DNA of 23,032 bases, taken from positions 1 through 23,032 of IMG/VR virus record IMGVR_UViG_3300009496_000086. One strand, given 5' to 3'. Source of the DNA: a virus. The notes under the pieces were generated by a model. That model saw only the letters and a list, made by a program, of their open reading frames with translations. It did no database searches and had not been told where the DNA came from. The position numbers were made by a program, and so were the translations under genes. This document shows positions 602-23,032 of the stretch, one piece after another; within the stretch, counting starts at the first letter, position 1, and each line of letters begins with the position of its first letter.

Positions 602-2440
602 TTATGAGAACTCTACGTTCTTAAGTTGTTTGATTCTGACTTTAATATCTTTTTCAGGAAACCTTATCTGATATATCTGATTAGGTTGTGCAAAAATAGT
701 ATCATCTATCAACTCAATTTGTTTAGAATTTTTATTAACGTATCTTTGAGATGTCTCGGACGATGAGTATTGACCTCCTGTTTTATTAAACACTTTTAAA
801 TCCGCCAATGTACTAACTCCTGGTATATCTTGTATAATTCTTCTAATGTCAGATATGTTAACATTTTTACCTAATAAATTAGTCATCGGAGATAAGTAAG
901 ATTCGACACTATTAACTATACTAGTTACAACCTGTCCTTGGTTTTCTGTGGATGTCATAGCAACACTGAACTCAAACTCTAAATCAATAACATCAGCACT
1001 CCGTATAGATATGTAATCATTTATCATACGATAATTAGAAAGGTAGTTAGCAATATTATCTTTTAATGTTTTAGACACATTACTAGTTAACTTTCTGTTT
1101 GAGTCGTATGATAATACTTCAATTTTTATCTTATTATCTTCCTCAACAATCGCAGCCTTTGCAGGTGCACCAAATCTACTTGGCATCGTTCTTATTAAAG
1201 AATTATAGTCGTTTATAGTAACCGCTCTTTTTTGTGCTGAAAAGTTATAAGTTACCATATTTCTAACCTCTTCTGTTGTAGGTAAGTCACCTCCTCCGAT
1301 AGCGGCGGTTACATTATTACATCTTAAACTTTGAATTACATTCTGATTAATGTTCTGTGATGGTCCGTTTACCGCAAAATTTACATTACCGATTTGATTA
1401 ATCGTATTAACCCCTATATTTGATGTCGCACCACCTCCGATTCTATATTTAACAAATAATGTCGTATTCGCTTTAACTGTTTTACCAAGTGCAATGTTGT
1501 TTTGATAATCCTGTAACCTTAATGGTATCCCCGTTCTTGCAAACTCGGCAAGTTGGTCGTCAGCGGTTACGGTAGCACTACCAAATTGGACTCTACAATA
1601 TCCTTCAGGTGTGTATTCGGATATAAATCTGTTTTCAGTCTCTATATATTTTCCGACTTTTATACCTGGATTGTCTGACGCCTTACTTGGGTCTTCAACA
1701 AATACCGTATTTTCTGCTAACGCATCGACCTCATACCATTTATCGGGTGAAGTGATAAACTCATCATATGTCGGCGGACTAGAATAGGATGTCCCATCTT
1801 TTTGAATTAAAGATGTTATACTTATTACATTTTTTTCAGGTAAAAAGAAATCGTAAAATGGTTTTACATCGTTACTATTAATTACTTTTTTGAAAACCTT
1901 TGTAGTTCCATTAACAACCACTTCTCTTTTTGTGATGGTATAATTTACTATTCTATTATTAGAATCAAAGTTCGGTATTTTAGTTCTGTTTGGAAACCCT
2001 TTACTATTATACTGAGTACTAAAATCAATATCGTCTTGATTTTCGAATATCTGACCAGCACCTATGAACTGAGAGCCCGACCTTATAATTCCTAAATATC
2101 TACTATCTTCTTGGTCCCCAAAAGCAGGTACGGTTATAGAAACGTCAACCAACGCAATTGACGGTCGGTTTCCAGGTATCTTTAGTCCGTATGTTCTTGC
2201 TATATTATATATAGATGATTTTTGTTGAGCATACTGTAGAACAGTTTCTTGAACACTTCTGTCAATGTGATAATGTAAATTATCTCCAATTGCAGCGTTT
2301 AAATCTAAAAATACAGAATAAACTGACGCATCATTAAAATTATCAATTAATTCAGGATAATATTGACGTGTAAAATTAATAAGGTCTTGCCTTAGTCCTT
2401 CAAAATCTCTATCTGTGTATGATATTTTACGATTAGCCAT
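602..2440 (-). CDS. 6: Baseplate wedge protein, gp6/J family
   Basis: This 612-residue protein is a T4 gp6-type (Baseplate_J family) wedge subunit, which forms the ring of the contractile-tail baseplate. The N-terminus carries the family signature ISYTDRDFEGLRQDL, then YYPELIDNFNDASVYSVFLDL and IGDNLHYHIDRSVQET (residues about 6-66). Further on are RVQFGSA, a glycine-rich GGGATSNIG, and the segment TTEEVRNMVTYNFSAQKRAV followed by NDYNSLIRTMPSRFGAPAKA, both typical of the conserved J core. It is similar in length to T4 gp6 (about 660). The ATG is five bases after the stop of the gp25-like gene, and the junction reads TAAGGTAAATG, giving the only fair Shine-Dalgarno-like AAGG in the window. 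The pairing with gp25 matches the physical partners in the T4 wedge. The function is a family inference, but a strong one. Confidence 0.9.
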   Translation of the reverse strand: MANRKISYTDRDFEGLRQDLINFTRQYYPELIDNFNDASVYSVFLDLNAAIGDNLHYHIDRSVQETVLQYAQQKSSIYNIARTYGLKIPGNRPSIALVDVSITVPAFGDQEDSRYLGIIRSGSQFIGAGQIFENQDDIDFSTQYNSKGFPNRTKIPNFDSNNRIVNYTITKREVVVNGTTKVFKKVINSNDVKPFYDFFLPEKNVISITSLIQKDGTSYSSPPTYDEFITSPDKWYEVDALAENTVFVEDPSKASDNPGIKVGKYIETENRFISEYTPEGYCRVQFGSATVTADDQLAEFARTGIPLRLQDYQNNIALGKTVKANTTLFVKYRIGGGATSNIGVNTINQIGNVNFAVNGPSQNINQNVIQSLRCNNVTAAIGGGDLPTTEEVRNMVTYNFSAQKRAVTINDYNSLIRTMPSRFGAPAKAAIVEEDNKIKIEVLSYDSNRKLTSNVSKTLKDNIANYLSNYRMINDYISIRSADVIDLEFEFSVAMTSTENQGQVVTSIVNSVESYLSPMTNLLGKNVNISDIRRIIQDIPGVSTLADLKVFNKTGGQYSSSETSQRYVNKNSKQIELIDDTIFAQPNQIYQIRFPEKDIKVRIKQLKNVEFS

Positions 2441-2445
2441 TTACC

Positions 2446-2925
2446 TTAAATATTAATAATAATGAAATCTCTCGTATCAAATGTACTATCTTTGATTGAA
2501 TAGTCTATTTTAACTTTGGCGGTGTACTCTTCAACCCCCTCACCCGCTGTTCTAAATATATCAAACATTTCATATGTTGAGCTCTGGTCCTCGACGTTTA
2601 AATCACCTATAGGACTCTTATCATCCTCACTATATGGTTCAATTGTGATATCATTTATCTGTAGGTTAGGTATGTATTTATCACACGCTATTTGTATATC
2701 TGACTTTATTGCGTCAAATGTAGGTCCATCCATAGGTTCAAAAATAAACTCATATATTCTAGTTCCAAAATCAGGTAAATAATATCTACTACCCTTTCTT
2801 GTTAATATTAAATGAAGTAAATCTGCCCTTACTTCTTCAGGTACATTTTCTGTTAAGTCTAAGTAAGTACCGTCAGTACTTTCTCTAAAAGGAAAATTTA
2901 CACCATAAGTTTTCTTTATCGCCAT
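2446..2925 (-). CDS. 25: Baseplate wedge protein, gp25 (GPW/gp25) family
   Basis: The 159-residue product belongs to the gp25-like family of small baseplate wedge proteins, which join the sheath to the baseplate in contractile tails. Visible family features are the N-terminal GVNFPF segment, the stretch EEVRADLLHLILTRKGSRYY, and the core PDFGTRIYEFIFEPMD at residues 51-66. This is followed by an alpha-beta C-terminal half with LQINDITIEPYSED and KVKIDYSIK. It is slightly longer than T4 gp25 (132). It is the first gene after the nrdA terminator, with 61 bases between the nrdA stop and this ATG. Directly before the ATG the minus strand reads TATATTTATTGTT, which might be a promoter -7 element, but that would give an almost leaderless message. 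It is followed after five bases by the gp6-like gene. Confidence 0.88.
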   Translation of the reverse strand: MAIKKTYGVNFPFRESTDGTYLDLTENVPEEVRADLLHLILTRKGSRYYLPDFGTRIYEFIFEPMDGPTFDAIKSDIQIACDKYIPNLQINDITIEPYSEDDKSPIGDLNVEDQSSTYEMFDIFRTAGEGVEEYTAKVKIDYSIKDSTFDTRDFIIINI

Positions 2926-10987: not shown

Positions 10988-11261
10988 ATTCTGATATGTC
11001 AGTACGAACTATTAGAACCCCTTCTTCCGTTGGGTGTTTTTCAATCACCCATGTGATACCGTTCCAATCTGTCCATTTTTCACCGACTTTAATTGTACTC
11101 TCCCAATACTTTATAGGGTATTGTCCGTCCCAATATGTGGGAATCATTGCGTCAAATCCAAATTTACTAGGATTTTTGTATACTTTTGTTGGGATTGTAT
11201 TATAACATCCCGAAAATAAAAAAGTAATTAATATTAATAGTATTTTATAATCTATCTTCAT
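10986..11261 (-). CDS. Small predicted lipoprotein
   Basis: The 91-residue product starts MKIDYKILLILITFLFSGC. It has a short charged N-terminus, a hydrophobic stretch and a lipobox LFSGC with the acceptor Cys19, so it should be exported, lipidated and leave a mature chain of 73 residues. The mature part has many aromatic residues (YWDGQYPIKYWE, WTDWNGITW) and no further membrane segment. I chose the ATG at 11259-11261; a longer in-frame start at 11318 would overlap the upstream gene by 74 bases and bury the signal peptide. With the chosen start the overlap is 17 bases. A phage-encoded lipoprotein could be an outer spanin for lysis or a receptor-blocking exclusion factor. No neighbouring holin, endolysin or inner spanin supports lysis, so the function is open. 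Confidence 0.8.
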   Translation of the reverse strand: MKIDYKILLILITFLFSGCYNTIPTKVYKNPSKFGFDAMIPTYWDGQYPIKYWESTIKVGEKWTDWNGITWVIEKHPTEEGVLIVRTDISE

Positions 11262-11877
11262 CTTCAAATGGTTTATCAAAAGACTTTTTGATATCACCAT
11301 CAGAATAACTTTCAACATCGTCAGAGGTTAAAACGTATTCGTTTTTACCTGTTTGTTCTAACTCATCTTGTTTGTCCATAAAGAAGTCTGTTAGTTTTTG
11401 ATTGTATGGATAACTATCAAGACTTCTCAACTGTAATTTTTCTTCAGGTGATTTTTGTCTGTATTTTTCAACTTTTTGTTCTAAGTCGTTAATCTTATTT
11501 AAGATAGTGTCCATCTCACCTAATTTAGAAGTTAAATCATCTAACTTACTAAACATATTCTCCATATACTCATCCTGTTTGTCAGAAATATCTTTCTGAG
11601 TTGTTACTAAATCTGTAATGTCTAACTCCTCAACACCACCTTCATCAGTAATATCGACACTTTCATCTCCAACAACTTCAACATCTGGGTCACTATCAAC
11701 GTCTACAGGTTCAGGAACTTCCTCAACATTTGTTTCGGTATCTACACCCATTTCCAAATTTTCATCACCACCTTCATCAGGTAGTGGGGGTAATTCAGTA
11801 TCTTCCTGCTCAATGATATAATTAGTTATCTTATTATATCTTTCAATTTCATTTATAATTTTTTTATCTATAGACAT
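11245..11877 (-). CDS. Acidic coiled-coil protein of unknown function
   Basis: This 210-residue protein is not recognised. Residues 1-22 form a basic/polar helix (MSIDKKIINEIERYNKITNY). Residues about 24-92 are extremely acidic and proline/valine rich (repeats of D/E with VPEPVDVDSDPDVEVV), so probably disordered. Residues about 93-145 show a heptad-like coiled coil (MENMFSKLDDLTSKLGEMDT, then ILNKINDLEQKVEKYRQK), followed by a mixed C-terminal part (RSLDSYPYNQKLTDFFMDKQ) and an acidic end FEDEDRL. Such an acidic plus coiled-coil make-up would suit a scaffold, assembly chaperone or other protein that is not a rigid virion part, but this is inference. It sits 11 bases after the 74-residue gene, and its last codons overlap the lipoprotein start. 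The leader AAATTAGAAAA has no Shine-Dalgarno sequence. Confidence 0.82.
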   Translation of the reverse strand: MSIDKKIINEIERYNKITNYIIEQEDTELPPLPDEGGDENLEMGVDTETNVEEVPEPVDVDSDPDVEVVGDESVDITDEGGVEELDITDLVTTQKDISDKQDEYMENMFSKLDDLTSKLGEMDTILNKINDLEQKVEKYRQKSPEEKLQLRSLDSYPYNQKLTDFFMDKQDELEQTGKNEYVLTSDDVESYSDGDIKKSFDKPFEDEDRL

Positions 11878-12154: not shown

Positions 12155-15100
12155 TCAACTTTCACCTCTCTGTATCACAGATTTAAATATATCTAACCAC
12201 TGTTCATAATTAGTTTTGAATTTTTCGTTGGTTTGTTTTTGATAATTAACCTCTTTTATAATATCAGATGCACTTCCGTTAATTGTCGGATTAGAGTAAA
12301 TATTACTCATATAAACAGTTGTTAAAGTTTTAGGTAATTCATCTATAACTGCCCCTTGTTGTAGTACATCGTATATTGCATCGGCCATGGGTCCGATTGG
12401 GTTAAGTGTTGCTCTCATAAAATCTAATGATTTTTCGATATTATCAAATGATGCTATTGTTGTTAAAATCCCCCCATATTGTACACAAACCTGAGAATCG
12501 AAGAATTGGTCTCTATTAGTTACTAATATATCAGTTCTTACATCCATAATATTGTTATTATAGCAATTTTCTCTGATTGACTGATTTTGTGTCGATATTC
12601 CGTATATTAATGTTTTTATCTTATCACTTGTAAAATCTTTACTGTTAACATAATCAATAACTTCTTGCGCTTGTATTGGTGTTTTTACCATTTCGGTAAA
12701 TGGTTTTTGAGGATATTTGGTAATCTCTTGTCCCTTTTCTTCTGGTCCTTGGGAGATGTTTTTCATCTTAGTTAATGCTAAATCATTTTCCGTCCCACCT
12801 GTTTTAGCGTTTGTTTCAATTTGTCTGACTTTCTCCTCCCATTGTTTTAATAGCTGTCTATTAACACTAGCAACTAACTTATCAGGTGGTGATAGTGCAA
12901 ATTTCGGTATTCTTACCCCGTCAAAATTAGTGGTAAAACCTCTATTAGTTATATTATGTGTTACATTCATAATTAAATACGGTCCATAAAATAAGGGTAC
13001 GTTTGTTAGGTTAAAGTACATCGTGGGTTGTATCATAGCGTTACCCATAGACTGTACTTGACATGTATAACTTCTAGTTTTATAAAAATTATAAAGAGAT
13101 TGAGATTGTTGAGCCACTTGTTGACCCGAAGCTTGAGAACCTATGTCCTCCAATACTTGGAATGTCGGTCCAATATTTTTGTGTTGATTCATGTCTATAG
13201 AGACTGAGTTAAATACTCCCTGATTTCTTTTTCCGAAATCTACCTGAAATCCTACACATCTATTACTATCAGAATAGTTAGTTTTGTTTGTTTGATTTTC
13301 TCTTAATGGGCAATCCGATGGGTTTGTTATATCAAACGCGTCGTCACCTTTTCTAAAAGTATTATTCTGCCCTGTACCTAAATTAGAGGATGGTTCACCA
13401 ACATAAATTCCAATCATTCTCGGTCTACTATCTCTAGTATCGACTTCCATAAACGTACCGAATAGGTCATTCGGTATGTCTTGTGGTAATGGTTCATTTT
13501 TCTTAGTCCTATCATTTCTACCGTAGAAATTAGTATACGCGGGTGTTGGTATAAATGTAAAATTATTTTTTTGGTATATCAGACCTAATAACCCATAAAC
13601 TGACATTTTGTCACTTCTACCTGTTATAAAACCTTCTAATTCGGAAATATTTACAACTACCTTATCCCCCACCGGTCTGTTCGCTCTATCTAAAAATAAG
13701 AAGTCTTCAAAAATAGTTCTGTTTTTAAAGTCTTGACCTGCCACCCATTTATCATTAAGTGCTTGAAACGTTTTCCATAGTTCAAGTTTTGGTATATTTC
13801 CGTCTATCTTAGACAGTCCTAATGATTCTTCAGTAATAGATACCGATGGTAAATCTCTATTCAATTTTATAAATATCTGATTTAGTATATCCTTTTGGAA
13901 GTTTTCTTGTTCCCCAAGGTACTCGTTAATTTCGTTTATAAAATTATCTTTATTCATCGTTTGGTCTTTCGACTTTTTAGATGCATAAATTTTTATGATA
14001 GGAGATAATAGTTGAACATTACTTTCAGTAAATTCAAATTCCATATCAACAAAAAAGTCGGTTAGATATGAGCCGTTATCTCCATACTTAAATCCTCCCT
14101 CGGAGAAATCTCCAACATATTCATACATTGCCTTCCACGCACTCGGATAAGACGCCTTACTTGACCCTAAACTTACACCTCCACCTTCGGTAGGTAATGA
14201 GTTCTGTACATAGTTTCCAAAATTATAAGGGTCTTCAATTTTTTGTGACGATAATGTTGTTAATGAACCATAAACTTTATTATTATATTTCGATGGGTTT
14301 CCAATTTTAAGTATGATATCTTTATTTGTGAGTACGTCCAAATTATAGTTTATGAATTGTGTGCTTTGTGAGTTAGTTAAACTTTTCAATACATTGTCAA
14401 AATTTAACTGTTCACTAGGAGCATTAACCATTAATAAAGATTTTAAAACTTCATGAATATTTAAATCATATTTATATAAATTAGGTCCATTGTATAAACT
14501 TTCCTGATTTTCATAAACCGATTTCCATCTACTCAGTTCAGTTGAAGGGACTTCTCCATTTTCATATTGACCCCTCACCTCTTCACTATTTATAAACTCT
14601 TCAAATGTTGTGTTTCCTCTGTTAACTAAGAATTGTGTTTTATTCGGTGGTTGACAAAAATTTAAAAAGTGTTGTTCAAATAAATCCAACATGTCTTTAG
14701 TAAAGACACCGAAAATATCATCTATCGATGAATAAGTTAAAGAAGTATCATTACCTAAATTAAACGCCTGTGTATTTTTATTTTCAGGGTTAATATGTTT
14801 TATATATTGATTAGGTTTTGGTTTATCAATCATTTCATTTGAGTAGTATCCGTAGTTTGAAGATGACCATAATGACCTTACCCCTCCATTATAAATCGAT
14901 GGGTTTGTTGTTACATTTTGTTTGTGGTTACCAACCGCATCAAAACATTCAAATCTTGTTTGATTAAATTTAGCTTCACCAAAAGAAGGTATTATTAGTA
15001 CCTTATTTTCTTTATTCTCTCTAAAATCATAATTACCTAAAACATTAAAGTACTGTGACCATGTATTCATCTGATAATCGGTCTCAGGGTCTTTAGAAAG

Positions 15101-18100
15101 TTTTATTTTTGTTTTTGATGTCGTACCTATTTGTAATCCTTTTTCGGTTTGAGCGCTTTGTAGTTCTGACGATGAATACGTACTAAATACGTCTTTTTTG
15201 GTGAAGAAATAATAAACGTCATTCATCACTTTAGGGAAGAATCCGTTTTGGACTCTTGTCGACTCAAGGTTTATCGTGACGTTCAAATCTCCCCCTAAAA
15301 ATGCGGGGTCACCCTGATTCAGTTGTATTATATCGGTAAATTGCTCATATTGTTTTATTGTGGTATTATCACCATTATAATCATTAAAACTATATGACTT
15401 AGACGTGTTGTTTGAAATGGGGTCATATGCGTTTACATAATCGAAATCTTTCCATACATCATCTAAAATATCTATATTATCATTTTGATATTTTTTATAT
15501 CTATGCCATATCGAACCATACTTTAATATGAAAGGGTATGGTAGTTTATGAATAGCCGAATACTTGTTTAATGTTGCAAAAATATAATTTAACTCTGTGG
15601 TTATTGTATTTGAGTTTGTTTTAAACTTTTCTTTTAGTGTGGATAAAGGTAAAGAATTTAAGTACAAATAACCTAAAGCGGTATATGGATTTTCAATTTC
15701 ATTTTTTTCGTTTTCAACTCCTTTCATAATTGAGTTGATGAAATATGGTGTATTAAGTAGTGAAGTAGTTTGGTTTCTACTAATGTAATTCTCAGTTGTG
15801 TCATATTTTGTCCCATAATCAATAAAGGACTCTGTTAATACTAAATCTTTTTGCATCCTAAGATTGTAGTAATTTATGACTTGAGCGTTTGTTAGGTAGT
15901 TTGTGTTTCCGTTAGAATTAATTGATGAGTCAAGGTCACTAGTCTCTTGTGTTGGTGAATTACTATAGTTTAATATCCATTCAAAATACGTGAATGGTTT
16001 TTTGTCATATGTTTTACCTATACTTGACTGACCTGATGATTGTGAACCTAAATCCGCTAAAACATCAAAACCGTACTTAAAAGACGCTATACTCTTTTTG
16101 GTTGAGTTTATTGAAAACATTTTAGACGTGTCGTTACTTAATTCAACTGAACTTATTTGTGACCCCTCTGATAAATTATTCTGTATCCATAATAAATTAT
16201 TAAATGGGTAACCATCACTAAATGACATTTCGTCTGAGTAGCTAGCTTTAAGGTATTTTTCTAATTTATCTATATTTTCAACATTTGACTCAACTGTGGT
16301 ACTATCTCCTTCTAAGTAACTTAAATCATATATTCCATAATCATTTTCTAAATATGATTTTATATATGGCGTCGTAAACTCTCCCCTTGAGTGTAAATTC
16401 CAATTTGTACCTTGTCCGTTGTTGGAAATAGACTTCATATATCTCAACATATTTTCGTAACTAAATGCGAAGTTTTTTAATAGCTCGATTAACTCCGTTG
16501 AGTTAACAACTGATTCTTTAAGGTTATTATACTCAAAGTCACTAACAACACTGTAAACCTCATCCCTATAACCACTTGATTTATAAAGGTTAGTATAATT
16601 ACTACTTAATAAAGTTCTTTCAAATATTTCATATATAAATGGAACTATGTTTAAGTCTGTATACGGTTGATTTTGGTTTGGGAACTCTATCGCATTTATA
16701 CCCATAAATGGATTATCCTTTAACGTATTAGTTAAATCGAAGTCTATATTTCCTGACTCTTTCTGAGTAGCCCCTTTCATAAATTCTTCAACAAACCTAA
16801 CCTCAGGCCATACCGTAGAAGAGAACGCTCTTAATTGTGACGCGACAGTATAGTCACCAGGGTATGTGTCTTTTAGTTCTTCATTTCCGTCTTCATCTAC
16901 TGAGTTAACAAAATACTGAGGCCAAGGATATACAATGGCGGTTTCTTGTTGTGGGTTATTAGTTGTCGGGGCATTACCACTATTTGTTTCAACTCCTTGT
17001 GATTTTTCAGGAGATAAAACGGCATTTCTTCTTATCGGGTTTTTTCTTTGTTCCCAAGATTCGTCATGTACTTGGTCCATTAATCTTAGGAACGCGTCTG
17101 CACTTGCCGATATAACAGCGATTATGTTTTTTATTGTAGGGTAAAATCCAAGACCCACGTTAGGACTTTTTATTTTTTCCGCCAACGCCTCAGACATCTT
17201 TTCTTCTACCATACTCCTCTTAGTCTCAAAGTCATCATTTAACCTCTGTAACTTACCCAAAAAACTAGTTATATTGTATTTTGTTTTACCGTATACATCC
17301 CCAAAGATGAAGAAGGTCCTCCTAAGCTGACTGTCCTCCATTTCTAACGTCTCAGCGTTAACTTGGTATCCATTAATTGTCAGTTCTGTCTCTATCTCAA
17401 CCTTTAGTGCCTCGACTTCCTGTTCTGTACCCGCTCTACCATTTCTTACTTCAAACGTAGATTCATAATCGATATCATCGGGATTGGTTATTTGTGTTAA
17501 AAAATTATTGATTGATATTGTTGAGGTGAGCGTAGTTTCTAATTTTTTTCCGTGTATTTTTGCTTGTCCGTCACTACCAAACGTGGTATTATCATTTAGT
17601 TTTGTGTTATATTCCTTGATAATGGTGTCAAGTGAAGATATAGAGTCACTTATGTTTTGTAGCGCAGTCTCTTCCTGATTTGTTAATTCTTTTTTTAACG
17701 GATATACTACCGCTGAGTTTGGGATGTTTAATATGAATGGTAGGTTTTTATCGATATTTTTTGTTTCCCAATTATCCGTTATTTGCCCGTATATCTTACT
17801 TTCATATTCTTTTAATGTTTTTCGATACAAATCAATATCGTTTAAGATTGCAAAATCTTCTTGTCCATACGCCTCCATTACATACCGTTCAAAGTTTTCC
17901 AACTTCATTAACATTTGACTTAACGTTAGTTCAGGGAAATTTTCATCTATCAAACCTTTGGCCTTATATGAACTATAAACATTCTTTATCATATCATAAC
18001 CTCTGGTAGATTTAATCCTCCTGACTTCTTGTAAACCCGATTCATTACTGGTTGTGGTCTTTTCGGGACCTAACGTTGCGGTTCGTTCGTACATATGAGG

Positions 18101-18811
18101 TAATGCGAATAGAGAGTCTACTGATATATCTGAAAGAAGTGCGTAAGTACGAGAAATAAAGTTAGTAGTAATTTTATAATTACCTGAAGATGGGTCGAAT
18201 CTTGCGTTAAAATCTTTTAACATTAATTCATACCTTAACGCCTTACCATAATATCCCTTAACAGTTAAGGTGAATAATGGGTATGGTAAATGAAAAAACG
18301 CACTGTATGGAGAATTTTCACCCTGCTCAAATAAAACCCTTCCCTGTACGTCTTCCATTTCAATAGTTACCAACGCAGCGTATGAAGTATTTATCTTAAT
18401 CGATATATTGGTTATTCCTAAAAGTTGTGAGTCAACATCCCCATTACGTGTTCTACCGAGTGTTAAATTGTCAGTCCATGAGGTATCTAAGTAAGAATCT
18501 TGTGTTTGACCTTCTCCCGTGTCCTGAGATTGTGGTTTCATAAAATTAATTACCGTTTCTTTGTTGTCATCAATGGCTCCTACTCGAATATTTTCTACCG
18601 CAGTTTCAAAATTATCACCAACAACTAATTTACTTCTCGGTATTATTTTAGCCTCTAAGCTGGCATACATAACGAGTTCCTCGTGATTGACTAACCTTTC
18701 AGAGACTTTACCCCCACTATCAACAACTTTATTGGGGTCTACCACAATAATGTTGTCATAATCGGTTTCTACATATACATTTTGATTGTTAAAGAATTCA
18801 TTACCTGCCAT
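12155..18811 (-). CDS. Giant tail/baseplate protein, probable hub component (2,218 residues)
   Basis: One unbroken frame of 2,218 codons, the largest gene here. Residues about 130-230 form a beta-rich domain with ITNISIKINTSYAALVTIEM, a PYPLFTLTVKGYYGK segment (177-190) and the strand pair LMLKDFNARFDPSSGNYKI, followed by FISRTYALLSDI; this style is seen in tail-hub or wedge proteins of large myoviruses. Near the C-terminus (about 1,915-1,975) the pattern TCQVQSMGNAMIQPTMYFNL, then PLFYGPYLIMNVTHNI and GFTTNFDGVRI resembles the last domain of gp27/GpD-type tail hubs (x-G-N-x-x-I-x-P then F-x-G-x-Y-x-I-x-x-V-x-H). About 1,700 residues of insert, rich in Asn, Ser and Tyr, separate them. The motif VL-x-D-x-GSQ-x-SGQ occurs twice, at 917 and 1,886. 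It overlaps the gp53-like gene by 11 bases, suggesting coupled translation. Hub identity is inference from motif pattern. Confidence 0.8.
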   Translation of the reverse strand: MAGNEFFNNQNVYVETDYDNIIVVDPNKVVDSGGKVSERLVNHEELVMYASLEAKIIPRSKLVVGDNFETAVENIRVGAIDDNKETVINFMKPQSQDTGEGQTQDSYLDTSWTDNLTLGRTRNGDVDSQLLGITNISIKINTSYAALVTIEMEDVQGRVLFEQGENSPYSAFFHLPYPLFTLTVKGYYGKALRYELMLKDFNARFDPSSGNYKITTNFISRTYALLSDISVDSLFALPHMYERTATLGPEKTTTSNESGLQEVRRIKSTRGYDMIKNVYSSYKAKGLIDENFPELTLSQMLMKLENFERYVMEAYGQEDFAILNDIDLYRKTLKEYESKIYGQITDNWETKNIDKNLPFILNIPNSAVVYPLKKELTNQEETALQNISDSISSLDTIIKEYNTKLNDNTTFGSDGQAKIHGKKLETTLTSTISINNFLTQITNPDDIDYESTFEVRNGRAGTEQEVEALKVEIETELTINGYQVNAETLEMEDSQLRRTFFIFGDVYGKTKYNITSFLGKLQRLNDDFETKRSMVEEKMSEALAEKIKSPNVGLGFYPTIKNIIAVISASADAFLRLMDQVHDESWEQRKNPIRRNAVLSPEKSQGVETNSGNAPTTNNPQQETAIVYPWPQYFVNSVDEDGNEELKDTYPGDYTVASQLRAFSSTVWPEVRFVEEFMKGATQKESGNIDFDLTNTLKDNPFMGINAIEFPNQNQPYTDLNIVPFIYEIFERTLLSSNYTNLYKSSGYRDEVYSVVSDFEYNNLKESVVNSTELIELLKNFAFSYENMLRYMKSISNNGQGTNWNLHSRGEFTTPYIKSYLENDYGIYDLSYLEGDSTTVESNVENIDKLEKYLKASYSDEMSFSDGYPFNNLLWIQNNLSEGSQISSVELSNDTSKMFSINSTKKSIASFKYGFDVLADLGSQSSGQSSIGKTYDKKPFTYFEWILNYSNSPTQETSDLDSSINSNGNTNYLTNAQVINYYNLRMQKDLVLTESFIDYGTKYDTTENYISRNQTTSLLNTPYFINSIMKGVENEKNEIENPYTALGYLYLNSLPLSTLKEKFKTNSNTITTELNYIFATLNKYSAIHKLPYPFILKYGSIWHRYKKYQNDNIDILDDVWKDFDYVNAYDPISNNTSKSYSFNDYNGDNTTIKQYEQFTDIIQLNQGDPAFLGGDLNVTINLESTRVQNGFFPKVMNDVYYFFTKKDVFSTYSSSELQSAQTEKGLQIGTTSKTKIKLSKDPETDYQMNTWSQYFNVLGNYDFRENKENKVLIIPSFGEAKFNQTRFECFDAVGNHKQNVTTNPSIYNGGVRSLWSSSNYGYYSNEMIDKPKPNQYIKHINPENKNTQAFNLGNDTSLTYSSIDDIFGVFTKDMLDLFEQHFLNFCQPPNKTQFLVNRGNTTFEEFINSEEVRGQYENGEVPSTELSRWKSVYENQESLYNGPNLYKYDLNIHEVLKSLLMVNAPSEQLNFDNVLKSLTNSQSTQFINYNLDVLTNKDIILKIGNPSKYNNKVYGSLTTLSSQKIEDPYNFGNYVQNSLPTEGGGVSLGSSKASYPSAWKAMYEYVGDFSEGGFKYGDNGSYLTDFFVDMEFEFTESNVQLLSPIIKIYASKKSKDQTMNKDNFINEINEYLGEQENFQKDILNQIFIKLNRDLPSVSITEESLGLSKIDGNIPKLELWKTFQALNDKWVAGQDFKNRTIFEDFLFLDRANRPVGDKVVVNISELEGFITGRSDKMSVYGLLGLIYQKNNFTFIPTPAYTNFYGRNDRTKKNEPLPQDIPNDLFGTFMEVDTRDSRPRMIGIYVGEPSSNLGTGQNNTFRKGDDAFDITNPSDCPLRENQTNKTNYSDSNRCVGFQVDFGKRNQGVFNSVSIDMNQHKNIGPTFQVLEDIGSQASGQQVAQQSQSLYNFYKTRSYTCQVQSMGNAMIQPTMYFNLTNVPLFYGPYLIMNVTHNITNRGFTTNFDGVRIPKFALSPPDKLVASVNRQLLKQWEEKVRQIETNAKTGGTENDLALTKMKNISQGPEEKGQEITKYPQKPFTEMVKTPIQAQEVIDYVNSKDFTSDKIKTLIYGISTQNQSIRENCYNNNIMDVRTDILVTNRDQFFDSQVCVQYGGILTTIASFDNIEKSLDFMRATLNPIGPMADAIYDVLQQGAVIDELPKTLTTVYMSNIYSNPTINGSASDIIKEVNYQKQTNEKFKTNYEQWLDIFKSVIQRGES

Positions 18812-19118
18812 AATAGAAGAAGTGTGTATCTAATGCCTTTTTATAATCTTGTAAAGAATTCACTAAAGGAAAGGGTATTACTAAAACTGCACCGTCATCG
18901 ATGTTATTTTCTAATCCCCCGAACTTAGGGTTTGCCGCTAAAATTAACCAACCAAAGTATGGTGTTTCATAAAATTGTTGACTTACTTTATCCAATCTAC
19001 TTCTACTAACTCTATAAATAAATTTCTTGTCTGTTGGTTTTGATGGGATGTTTACAAACGGCACTACAGTTTGTTCTCCATTCAAAAGAAAGTCTTGGTA
19101 TCTATTATAGTATCTCAT
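18801..19118 (-). CDS. Probable baseplate wedge protein, gp53/LysM-like
   Basis: The 105-residue product begins MRYYNRYQDFLLNGEQTVVP. From residue 33 it reads FIYRVSRSRLDKVSQQFYET, PYFGWLILAANPKF and DDGAVLVIPFPL. A strand, a helix with S-R-L-D-K-V-S-Q-Q-F-Y, W-x-L-I-L-A-A-N, then G-x-x-L-x-I-P is the layout of a LysM-type fold, which is used both in T4 gp53-type wedge subunits and in small tail-tube adaptors of other contractile systems. The context between two very large tail proteins supports a structural adaptor rather than a lysin. Its ATG shares one base with the stop of the preceding gene (TAATG), and its end overlaps the giant gene by 11 bases, so the three are probably translated together. 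The gp53 name is tentative, but the structural role is likely. Confidence 0.72.
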   Translation of the reverse strand: MRYYNRYQDFLLNGEQTVVPFVNIPSKPTDKKFIYRVSRSRLDKVSQQFYETPYFGWLILAANPKFGGLENNIDDGAVLVIPFPLVNSLQDYKKALDTHFFYYGR

Positions 19119-22100
19119 TAGTTAAATGTATATTTTTCATTAAAGATGTTTTTGGGTCCATCGTTTAATCCTGATTTAAATGTTGCGTTAAAGTATTTTA
19201 CCTTACTGTCGTCAGCAGATTCTTGTGGTTTTTGTATGTATGTGAAGTTTCTTGTTTTTTCTAAATTAAATGGTTGGTATAAATTAAATTTTAAACATAT
19301 TGGTTTATTTTTAAACCTTTCGACACTTCTGTTTGAATCTCCTTGTAGTTTTTTATATATACTCTGTAACCCCCAGTTATTGTTTGGTAGTGAGCCTGCT
19401 GAAAAATTATTTGTCTGTGTTCCTATACCGTTAATTACTGTGTCGACCCAAAATACCCATTCTGCTTTTTCTATTAGTTTTTCACCTAAAATTTGTCTTT
19501 TTAATTCCTCAGGGTTGTTGATTACAAAACCAAAATTAATCGTACAAAATCTTGTTTGTGGTTCTGTGTTATAAGGTGGGAATAAAAAATCTATGTATAA
19601 ATTATCTTTTTCAGGTAAAAGACCATAACTTATATTATTGTCTTCGTCTTCAAAATCAAAATCATCATCACTATTATCTACTCCCTGAAATAATTCTTCA
19701 TAAAAATTTTTCATATCTTCTCCCACTGTTTGGATGTCGTCAACTAACTCCCCGTATGTGTCTATCATATCTGACGAAGGGTCAACTTCAGTAGTTGCTG
19801 ATAATGAAAGTATAAATGCCCTACCTTTTTTGTTTTTATAACCGTCAGTACTTGTTGTAATTAAATTTAGTTTATCATTAATTCTAGTAAAATCTGTTTG
19901 TACTCCTACTGCACTATTCCCGTGACCTTCCATAATCTGAGCATATTCATTTGTTCTTTTTTCAATGAGTGTTTTTAAATTCTTTTTAAATTTTTTTATA
20001 TCACTATTTTTTAAATTTTGTTCATAGATTGTTGTGGTAGGTGTTTTTAAAAATGGATTTTCATCATTATCAACATCTTCTAATAGTTTGTTTTTTAAAT
20101 CAATAACCCTATTTTGTATCTCTATCGGTTTACCAAATAAATTTGTTTCATATTCATTATTACCATCTAAATACCCTGTTACATAGCCTTCTGTGTAGTT
20201 TCTTTTTTGTGTTAGATAATAAAGACCTATTCTTGAATGGAATGTATTTACGGTTTCAACAGTGGTAATAATATTTTGTGTATATGCTTGTGTTTTTTTG
20301 ACGTAGTCGACAACAGGTGCTTTATAGTTTATTTCACCTATTAAATCGAGTGTTGTTCCTGTTAGTTCAGGGCTTGTTTGAGTACTTGTTATTTCACCTA
20401 TTGTATCTCCCGCCTCTTCACTTCTTTCAACTTGACCGTTTTCAGTTAATGAAAAATCATTCGCATCTTCTATAGCGTCTAAAGCCTCTCTATTTAATTC
20501 TGACCTATCTTCGGTAACTATTGAACGGTCGTCATAAACCTCCGTGTTACCATAATAGTTAAAAGACAATGCGTTTTGTAATCTAGATACCGGCTCTTTT
20601 ATTCCTTGTCCACCTATAAAGTAAAAACTCATATTAATATCTGCTATCATAGGTTGTACACCAATTCCTTCAGGATTCAAATCAAATGTTAATGGTTCGT
20701 AATTAATACTCATCTGTTGAATTGCAATTTTTGAATGATAAAAATCACCTATTCTTAATACACATATCGGAGGCGCACCAAACGCAGTGTTTTTAACATC
20801 CCCCTCTCTTGGTTTACCGTCCTCACCTATTACGGGGATTGTATCACCAGGTCTCAAACATTGTTGTAAGAAAGTAAGTCTACTGTTTAATCCTTCAGGT
20901 GTCATAGAGTGAAATACCGGTTGAAAATATTTAATCTTCTCTTTGATACCTTCGTACACTCTTGGTGTTTCCTCCCTCATCATATTAAAGTAGTCACACT
21001 CAGTTAATAATTTTTTAACTATTATCTTAGCAACTTCGTTTCTCGGCTGGGTTAGTTTTGATTCTTTTTGTCTTATTACCTCCGTTTTTCCTGTTATGGT
21101 TTCTGTTATTATAGTTTCCTCCGGCGGTACTTCGGTTACCCTTTGTTCAGGTGGTGAAGGAATTTCTTCAATTGTTTTTATCACCACAGCCCTACATGCC
21201 ATTGCGTTAACCGAATATGTCGTAGAGTTACCTGATAACTCTTCTGTACAATTAAAAGACCCGTATTCACCTCCGCCTGGTGTGGCGGTTGACTGTTCTC
21301 CTTGTGGGTCTTCGGTAATTGAAAATCTGTCTTCATATTTACTTAAGTCAAAAAACGAAAATAAATATTTTTTAACGGCGTCTATTCTTCTTTTAGACAA
21401 AGAATCGTTATACGCAACACTATTTGGTGCAGATGCAGAACCTACTAATTTCATATTTATAGTGGCTCCTTTATCTAACGCCGCTTTAATCTTTACCACT
21501 AACTCCTGTGTTTTCTTTTCTGTTATATTAGTACCTTCTCCGTTTATTAAAAAGCTTTCAAAAAATTGTAGTACCTGAATTTTTTTATCAGAGTCCGCAG
21601 TATTATAGTAAGTTTCTTTTTTGGCTATGTATGTGGATAGTGTGTTCGCATATTCTTCAGTTGTAGTTGTGGACGATGCAGTTCGTGGTCCGGGTACATC
21701 ATTGTCAAAATAAAATTCATACTCATAGTCTTGTGTTTGTACTTCAGGAGTATATTCTTCAATGACAGGGTCTTTTTCGGTTAAGTCAATTCTTTCAATA
21801 TCTTTTGAAAAATTTTCATATGTTTTTATGTCTGTAGTTTCTGTAACTATCTCGTATATATCTTTTAAGGTAAATTGAGGGAACCTTTGGGCTAATTCAT
21901 ATATGTCGTATTTTCTACATCCCGCAAAAAATGAATCAACAATGTCATTAACTCTTTGTGAGTTTTGACCCGCCAACTCTTTATCAACAATTGCGTTTAA
22001 TATTGAGGGGTGGTCAACCACTATTTTCCAAGATAAACTACCTTGTCTGGTCGTATTGTTATACGTATAAACCGGTTCAGGTCTTCCTAAAAACTCGTTA

Positions 22101-23032
22101 GATGTCCAATTGGTAGAGTTGGTTTCAGATACTTTCATATCGTATGGTGGAAACCACATAATTCTACCTCCGCTAGGTCCTCTTTCACAAACGGGTAAAT
22201 CAGAATAAGTGAATCCAGGTTTACTTGATGTTCTCCAAGCCAAGTTTTCAATTGAAAACATATACTTTTTTACTTTATCGGCTTGTATATTACTTGAATC
22301 GTCATCCCTAAAAGGTGCGATATTAAGATTATAGGTATTATCTAAGACAGAAAATTGGAATCTTCTGTTTTGATTAGTCATTCCGTCTTCCTTTTGTAGT
22401 TCACTATTTGAGAAATAAGGTATGTCTTTAGTAAATACTCTACAGTATTCCATTCCTTTAATTTCACCAGTGCTTTGGTCTTCGTATTTATAAACTCTTG
22501 AGCCTTTTGTAATCTCGCGAGTACCGTCACTAAAAACTTTTGACACTTGATTTATTGCATTACCAACGTGTTGTAACCTTGCATCTCCTTGTAACCCTTC
22601 TGCGGAGTCAATTAATTTTTGTGTGTCATCTAATATAGAACCTTTCTTAAAATCGTATTGTGTTGATACACCCGCATCAAATGATGACTGTATATTCGAT
22701 TCAAAGTTACTATCAACAGAACCAAGACCACCACCTTGCGATACAAATCGTCCCGCAGATTTTACACCGTCTAAACTAGTCCATGTAAATCCTCCTTGTA
22801 ATCTAGGTGCGTCGTAACTACTGTTTGTGGCAGTTCCTACCCTTAAGAATTTAGTTCCGTTAAGTCCAAATTTAAATGAAAAGTTACCCTCGTATAGTTT
22901 ACCTAACTCAGAGTATCCTCTAACAGGTGTTCTTACTCTATTACCAAATTGGTCTACCGGTAGTTCGTTTGATGGTGCAACAATGTCTTTAGGGTCTTGT
23001 GTTTTACTCCCCACGTAATAGTTACCTGAAGG
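19118..23032 (-). CDS. Large baseplate/tail protein with embedded OmpA-like domain, 5' end outside window
   Basis: The frame stays open to the right window edge. A GTG at 23012-23014 would give 1,298 residues, but in-frame codons (reading PSGNYY) continue upstream, so the true start probably lies outside. Numbered from that GTG, residues about 475-560 form an OmpA-like domain: IQVLQFFESFLING, INMKLVGSASAPNS (Gly525), then YNDSLSKRRIDAVKKYLFSF. A proline/glutamate linker (IPSPPEQRVTEVPPEE) follows. A conserved-looking core then reads FHSMTPEGLNSRLTFLQQCL, APPICVLRIGDFYHSKIAIQ, LNPEGIGVQPMIADINMSFY and FIGGQGIKEP. This looks like a tail-tube or baseplate-completion type beta domain, though I cannot assign a T4 number. 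It precedes the gp53-like gene in a TAATG overlap. No signal peptide is seen in the visible part, so the OmpA-like module belongs to a cytoplasmically assembled virion protein. Confidence 0.82.
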   Translation of the reverse strand, partial: PSGNYYVGSKTQDPKDIVAPSNELPVDQFGNRVRTPVRGYSELGKLYEGNFSFKFGLNGTKFLRVGTATNSSYDAPRLQGGFTWTSLDGVKSAGRFVSQGGGLGSVDSNFESNIQSSFDAGVSTQYDFKKGSILDDTQKLIDSAEGLQGDARLQHVGNAINQVSKVFSDGTREITKGSRVYKYEDQSTGEIKGMEYCRVFTKDIPYFSNSELQKEDGMTNQNRRFQFSVLDNTYNLNIAPFRDDDSSNIQADKVKKYMFSIENLAWRTSSKPGFTYSDLPVCERGPSGGRIMWFPPYDMKVSETNSTNWTSNEFLGRPEPVYTYNNTTRQGSLSWKIVVDHPSILNAIVDKELAGQNSQRVNDIVDSFFAGCRKYDIYELAQRFPQFTLKDIYEIVTETTDIKTYENFSKDIERIDLTEKDPVIEEYTPEVQTQDYEYEFYFDNDVPGPRTASSTTTTEEYANTLSTYIAKKETYYNTADSDKKIQVLQFFESFLINGEGTNITEKKTQELVVKIKAALDKGATINMKLVGSASAPNSVAYNDSLSKRRIDAVKKYLFSFFDLSKYEDRFSITEDPQGEQSTATPGGGEYGSFNCTEELSGNSTTYSVNAMACRAVVIKTIEEIPSPPEQRVTEVPPEETIITETITGKTEVIRQKESKLTQPRNEVAKIIVKKLLTECDYFNMMREETPRVYEGIKEKIKYFQPVFHSMTPEGLNSRLTFLQQCLRPGDTIPVIGEDGKPREGDVKNTAFGAPPICVLRIGDFYHSKIAIQQMSINYEPLTFDLNPEGIGVQPMIADINMSFYFIGGQGIKEPVSRLQNALSFNYYGNTEVYDDRSIVTEDRSELNREALDAIEDANDFSLTENGQVERSEEAGDTIGEITSTQTSPELTGTTLDLIGEINYKAPVVDYVKKTQAYTQNIITTVETVNTFHSRIGLYYLTQKRNYTEGYVTGYLDGNNEYETNLFGKPIEIQNRVIDLKNKLLEDVDNDENPFLKTPTTTIYEQNLKNSDIKKFKKNLKTLIEKRTNEYAQIMEGHGNSAVGVQTDFTRINDKLNLITTSTDGYKNKKGRAFILSLSATTEVDPSSDMIDTYGELVDDIQTVGEDMKNFYEELFQGVDNSDDDFDFEDEDNNISYGLLPEKDNLYIDFLFPPYNTEPQTRFCTINFGFVINNPEELKRQILGEKLIEKAEWVFWVDTVINGIGTQTNNFSAGSLPNNNWGLQSIYKKLQGDSNRSVERFKNKPICLKFNLYQPFNLEKTRNFTYIQKPQESADDSKVKYFNATFKSGLNDGPKNIFNEKYTFN

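Follow-up and report, generated by a model that had tools for sequence, protein, structure and literature searches.

Is the OmpA-like segment encoded in the tail region of this phage a real domain, and if so is it used to bind the cell wall of the host? To our knowledge, little is known of the way contractile tails locate and cross peptidoglycan, except in phages with tail lysozymes, and in the open-access literature we found no phage baseplate reported to contain an OmpA-like domain. An earlier note on this DNA had read such a domain within a large tail protein and offered two roles for it, holding the tail at the peptidoglycan layer or a re-used fold for assembly. If the first is true, a baseplate-region domain akin to the wall-anchoring proteins of the host would represent a docking step that can be tested.

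The window analysed is the entire viral record of 23,032 bases. The gene in question is open to the edge of the window and has genes for baseplate proteins downstream.

19118..23032, minus strand: protein of the tail/baseplate region that carries the OmpA-like domain, its ORF continuing past the window edge
18801..19118, minus strand: next gene downstream, baseplate wedge subunit, gp53-like (PHROG 7145, E 0.0013)
12155..18811, minus strand: 2,218-residue protein belonging to this block, without a family match
2446..2925, minus strand: baseplate wedge subunit, gp25-like (PHROG 261, E 5.1e-16)
602..2440, minus strand: baseplate wedge subunit, gp6-like (PHROG 219, E 3e-20)

Counted from the first GTG inside the window, the minus-strand ORF (23014..19118) encodes 1,298 residues, and the frame runs on unbroken as far as the window edge. 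Two contigs that are 99.9% identical to the window, L002 and L007, carry the full ORF of 1,595–1,597 residues; judged from these, the window edge truncates the gene and approximately 300 N-terminal residues are missing. Upstream of the gene in L007 are genes for sheath, tube and a gp26-like protein, together with a 682-residue protein that may be a tape measure, judging by its resemblance to one. The order downstream is the gp53-like gene, the 2,218-residue protein, replication and ribonucleotide reductase genes, and then the gp25- and gp6-like wedge genes, the latter having Flavobacterium phage immuto and Microcystis phage Mel-JY01 as its nearest annotated phages. A block with sheath, tube, gp26-, gp53-, gp25- and gp6-like genes is a T4-like baseplate and tail module, and confirms that the gene lies in a tail/baseplate block, as the earlier reading implied.

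The body of the OmpA-domain protein has no relative of known function among PHROGs or solved structures, and HMM comparison with phages immuto, Mel-JY01 and LR756508 gave no match. The PHROG matches of the protein were rejected as a clue to its body after being traced to the OmpA domain, and the CIS tube initiator (PF19266) was rejected because hhalign gave a probability of 0.2–0.4% and reversed controls did as well. The TPR, beta-propeller and CRD parts of the PorE, T9SS architecture are absent from both the window protein and the full L007 ORF. Elsewhere in the block, the 2,218-residue protein (12155–18811, minus strand) had no match in a scan of the genome contigs, and by eye its C-terminal part (PLFYGPYLIMNVTHNITNRGFTTNFDGVRIP) resembles a hub protein. 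A truncated minus-strand ORF after gp6 (1–531) has a weak match to CarboxypepD_reg (E 0.023) near its in-window end.

Within this protein, two nested features define the domain:

21164..21724, minus strand: OmpA-like domain, residues 431–617 of the in-window protein (HMM, AlphaFold, Foldseek)
21335..21532, minus strand: core matched by Pfam OmpA (PF00691), profile positions 7–72 of 98 (profile search)

The PF00691 match covers residues 495–560 and scores 26.2 bits (E 1.7e-7) against the window record, 22.2 bits (E 1.9e-4) when the whole protein is compared with all Pfam, and 25.7 bits (E 1.5e-5) when only the segment is. All of the window's own scores, 22.2–26.2 bits, are just below the curated cut-off of 27.2 bits, as might be expected of a chance motif without the OmpA fold. 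Against this reading, the ortholog in the 270-kb record of locus L012 scores 34.6 bits, above the cut-off. Altogether PF00691 is matched in 30 of 41 relatives (best E 1.3e-8), and a profile of the phage domains matches 29 distinct solved sequences of the OmpA family at E<0.001. In the reciprocal search, an HMM of 35 chromosomal domains from Bacteroidota matches residues 431–617 (iE 2.8e-19) with 72.1 bits, compared with at most 5.6 bits over 1,000 shuffled versions of the protein and −4.1 bits for the reversed protein. The ortholog score, reciprocal HMM, shuffles and the fold search below rule out a chance motif, which we regard as next to impossible. The three peptides on which the domain had been called, KIQVLQFFESFLING, MKLVGSASAPNS and YNDSLSKRRIDAVKKYL, all lie in the minus-strand ORF in the order and place given for them, and the N-x-x-L-S-x-x-R helix is present as NDSLSKRR, with its Arg in 68/68, Asn in 65/68 and Leu in 66/68 of the phage rows. 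The span first proposed, 21340–21590, is correctly located but too short, since the bacterial-domain HMM extends the domain to approximately 21164–21724.

An AlphaFold model of residues 440–645 has a pLDDT of 86 and a pTM of 0.79. When it is used as a Foldseek query, OmpA-like chains dominate the top ranks, with PorE (6top) first, followed by Capnocytophaga OmpA and Pal; the best E is 2.3e-3 with a probability of 0.99, and target TM values are mostly 0.42–0.61. The top E-values are modest (2e-3 to 5e-3), probably because the domain has extra helices and its first strand falls outside the construct. In a 1,195-residue model the first strand is visible and the domain has a pLDDT of about 77–89, within a body that is low and an overall value of 64.5. 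The predicted model and the Foldseek ranks point to the beta-alpha-beta-alpha-beta fold, as had been foreseen for the segment. With Pfam profile, relatives and predicted structure in agreement, the domain call is right and the OmpA-like fold is beyond reasonable doubt.

Whether the domain could bind peptidoglycan depends on its ligand pocket. In PorE the side chains of Asp576, Asn584 and Arg591 bind the DAP residue, while Phe541, Tyr583 and Ile587 touch the peptidoglycan fragment (PMC7192894), and in Acinetobacter OmpA D271 and R286 are critical for DAP binding (PMC6572160). The corresponding elements of the phage domain are as follows:

21698..21715, minus strand: first strand FYFDND, with Phe436 equivalent to PorE Phe541 (alignment with Bacteroidota domains)
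21422..21442, minus strand: loop GSASAPN, with Ser528 (21431–21433) at the position of PorE Asp576 and Acinetobacter OmpA Asp271
21362..21412, minus strand: helix YNDSLSKRRIDAVKKYL, with Tyr535, Asn536, Leu539 and Arg543 (21386–21388) (conservation)

In the helix Tyr535 corresponds to PorE Tyr583, Asn536 to Asn584, Leu539 to Ile587 and Arg543 to Arg591. The comparison of DAP-binding residues thus finds counterparts for the Phe, Tyr, Asn, Leu and Arg positions but not for the Asp, which is Ser instead. The replacement of the TDxxG Asp had been noticed before and holds, as does the retention of the arginine, Arg543 being invariant in the phage rows. Across all phage rows the position is Ser in 65/68 and Asp in 0/68. 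Where phage and bacterial domains were compared, Ser occupies it in 35/35 bacterial rows and 29/30 phage rows, the remaining one being Thr. Since Ser is invariant in the 35 Bacteroidota relatives, the exchange is a property of the subfamily and not a loss or degeneration in the phage. The F, N, D and P of the first strand are likewise invariant in the Bacteroidota domains (35/35).

By conservation, the six pocket positions, taken as the side-chain positions named for PorE (PMC7192894), stand at ranks 1, 4, 5, 8, 9 and 28 among 187 (p 5e-5), and they also surpass the other residues of their loop and helix (p 5e-4). Because they are among the most conserved positions, the pocket appears to be under constraint with Ser in place, and conservation of its Phe, Asn, Leu and Arg suggests a working ligand pocket. 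Its ligand would probably be the peptidoglycan stem peptide. Asn, Leu and Arg are also hallmarks of the OmpA-like fold and could be kept for stability alone. In the solved C-terminal domain of Francisella FopA (6u83) GYASQG replaces GHTDxxG, so Ser-type loops also occur outside the Bacteroidota; that FopA binds peptidoglycan is only assumed (PMC9342783). We found no record in the literature that the ligand of the Ser-type OmpA subfamily has been determined.

Where, then, does the domain come from? With the phage profile as query, 43 of the 149 genomes from one class of Bacteroidota had full-length matches (1e-16 to 1e-27); 99 genomes of the phylum of genome G005, whose locus is titled Holophagaceae, had no match of full length. 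The matched Bacteroidota proteins contain TPR and PD40 propeller repeats, some with CarboxypepD_reg, followed by a C-terminal OmpA-like domain, and in NCBIfam their N-terminal parts are near CHU_0125 and PorE, below the cut-offs. The window scores 72.1 bits with the HMM of these Ser-type domains versus 29.9 bits with an HMM of other OmpA domains, and shares with them a full-length match, the YFxNDxPxP strand, the Ser loop and the RRI/V motif. On these sequence comparisons, the phage domain belongs to a PorE/CHU_0125-like Bacteroidota subfamily and not to OmpA/Pal in general. A tree separates the labels cleanly into three groups without an outside root; reading a direction of transfer from it was rejected, since three groups without a root do not distinguish donor and recipient. 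The phage probably infects Bacteroidota: uvsX matches nothing but Flavobacterium phage immuto (46%), and of the five relatives from genome bins three carry a Bacteroidota label, the rest being Prochlorococcus and Holophagaceae.

Among viruses, relatives were found at 77 IMG/VR loci with identity down to 32%, and nearly all whose alignment reaches that far carry the OmpA-like domain. A tblastn search of 50,697 phage records matched neither the whole protein nor its domain, and the OmpA domain is absent from the nearest annotated phages (immuto, Mel-JY01 and LR756508). The deepest relatives (L071, L072, L076 and L083) have an OmpA-like core in the same slot that scores higher with ordinary OmpA models, which may reflect a swap of one OmpA subtype for another or plain divergence; L077 and L078 match neither OmpA model and have lost the signature. 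One feature is particular to the phages:

21194..21250, minus strand: Cys589 and Cys607 pair, conserved in phages and absent from Bacteroidota domains

Cys589 is present in 30/30 and Cys607 in 27/30 phage rows, and either in 0/35 bacterial rows. Separately, the record of locus L042 contains a second OmpA-like protein of 505 residues (L176:346–1863, minus strand), whose gene adjoins one that appears to resemble the T4 gp23 major capsid protein and whose N-terminus, MSKKIIRLTESDLENIVRRIITEQ, looks like a capsid-targeting sequence. In the record of L012 an OmpA-like ORF of 474 residues (L175:1081–2505, minus strand) begins with MKRNIINEVNRMRQIMGLELVLEQ and has a weak Pfam match (E 9.2e-4). A 210-residue ORF in the window (11245–11877, minus strand) has a start, MSIDKKIINEIERYNKITNYIIEQE, akin to the N-termini MSKKIIRLTESDLENIVRRIITEQ and MKRNIINEVNRMRQIMGLELVLEQ and is possibly head-targeted.

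The explanation that we favour is that a complete OmpA-like domain (431–617), with the segment as its core, lies in a large baseplate- or tube-region protein of an uncultured T4-like phage, and that the phage line would have taken this domain from a PorE/CHU_0125-like envelope protein of its probable Bacteroidota host. The domain would act after passage of the tail tip through the outer membrane; its pocket would then bind the stem peptide of peptidoglycan or a close relative of it, and binding would place the tip at the wall. We give this explanation as a whole, a host-derived Ser-type domain whose pocket is used to dock the tip at the wall, a probability of about 0.5. A sharper version, in which a T4-like lineage carries a host PorE-like wall-binding domain in its baseplate, with a Ser pocket of new specificity, and docks at peptidoglycan before genome release, is put forward tentatively, at somewhat short of even odds. 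Counting against the favoured explanation, the DAP-contacting Asp is missing from the phage domain.

That missing Asp, and the conserved Cys pair that the phages add, would also fit a domain that is merely an assembly or spacer part of the baseplate and does not bind the wall. There are precedents in the LysM domains of gp16 from Anabaena phage A-1(L), which lies inside the baseplate, and of T4 gp53 (PMC10966104). Such structural re-use is the main rival, possible but on balance doubtful: the pocket positions rank near the top of the domain in conservation, also relative to their own loop and helix, and host envelope proteins, which play no part in a baseplate, show this Ser-type pocket without variation. 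Of the two roles offered by the earlier note, pocket conservation favours binding, and we rate attachment to the wall as the likeliest role, with odds near even. An invariant Ser could also mean a ligand that has changed but is constrained, so that the domain would bind a host envelope protein or another non-peptidoglycan ligand, for example a partner of the Ser-type PorE-like proteins; that Ser-type OmpA domains occur elsewhere, as in FopA, is in keeping with this. We consider it improbable, since the remaining contacts of PorE with the DAP group (Phe, Tyr, Asn, Leu/Ile and Arg) are kept. If docking at the wall is correct, the phage may hold on to the wall of its host by means of a domain much like one that the host itself has, the key pocket residue being exchanged in both. 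Attention is also drawn to the Ser-type OmpA subfamily, which is frequent among Bacteroidota and does not vary at a pocket position whose Asp, where present, is critical for DAP binding.

Of the known systems, PorE of Porphyromonas gingivalis (6top) is the best match among solved structures, with a pocket alike in all but one residue; PorE, with Asp576, binds a fragment of peptidoglycan, whereas the phage domain has Ser528 and its binding is putative. The PorE/CHU_0125-like proteins of Bacteroidota match over the whole domain, including the YFxNDxPxP strand, the extra helices, the Ser at the Asp position and the pocket Asn, Leu and Arg, but carry the domain C-terminally after TPR and propeller repeats, while in the phage it lies mid-protein and has the Cys pair. 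The C-terminal domains of OmpA and Pal (PF00691) and of TagL share the fold and the N-x-x-L-S-x-x-R helix, but have a GHTDxxG loop in place of GSASAPN. TagL fixes a contractile machine, the T6SS, to the wall (PMC8253398), but is part of the membrane complex of the secreting cell. Other phages also encode OmpA-domain proteins (Cellulophaga phi17:2 R9ZWT8, PHROG 26111), again in a phage of Bacteroidota and with weak profile and fold similarity, although there the domain is in a separate protein of 327 residues and PHROG 26111 is filed under moron genes. The LysM domains of T4 gp53 and A-1(L) gp16, the latter located between hub, initiators and wedge (PMC10966104), likewise place a wall-binding-type fold within a baseplate, but the fold is unrelated and its role there is structural.
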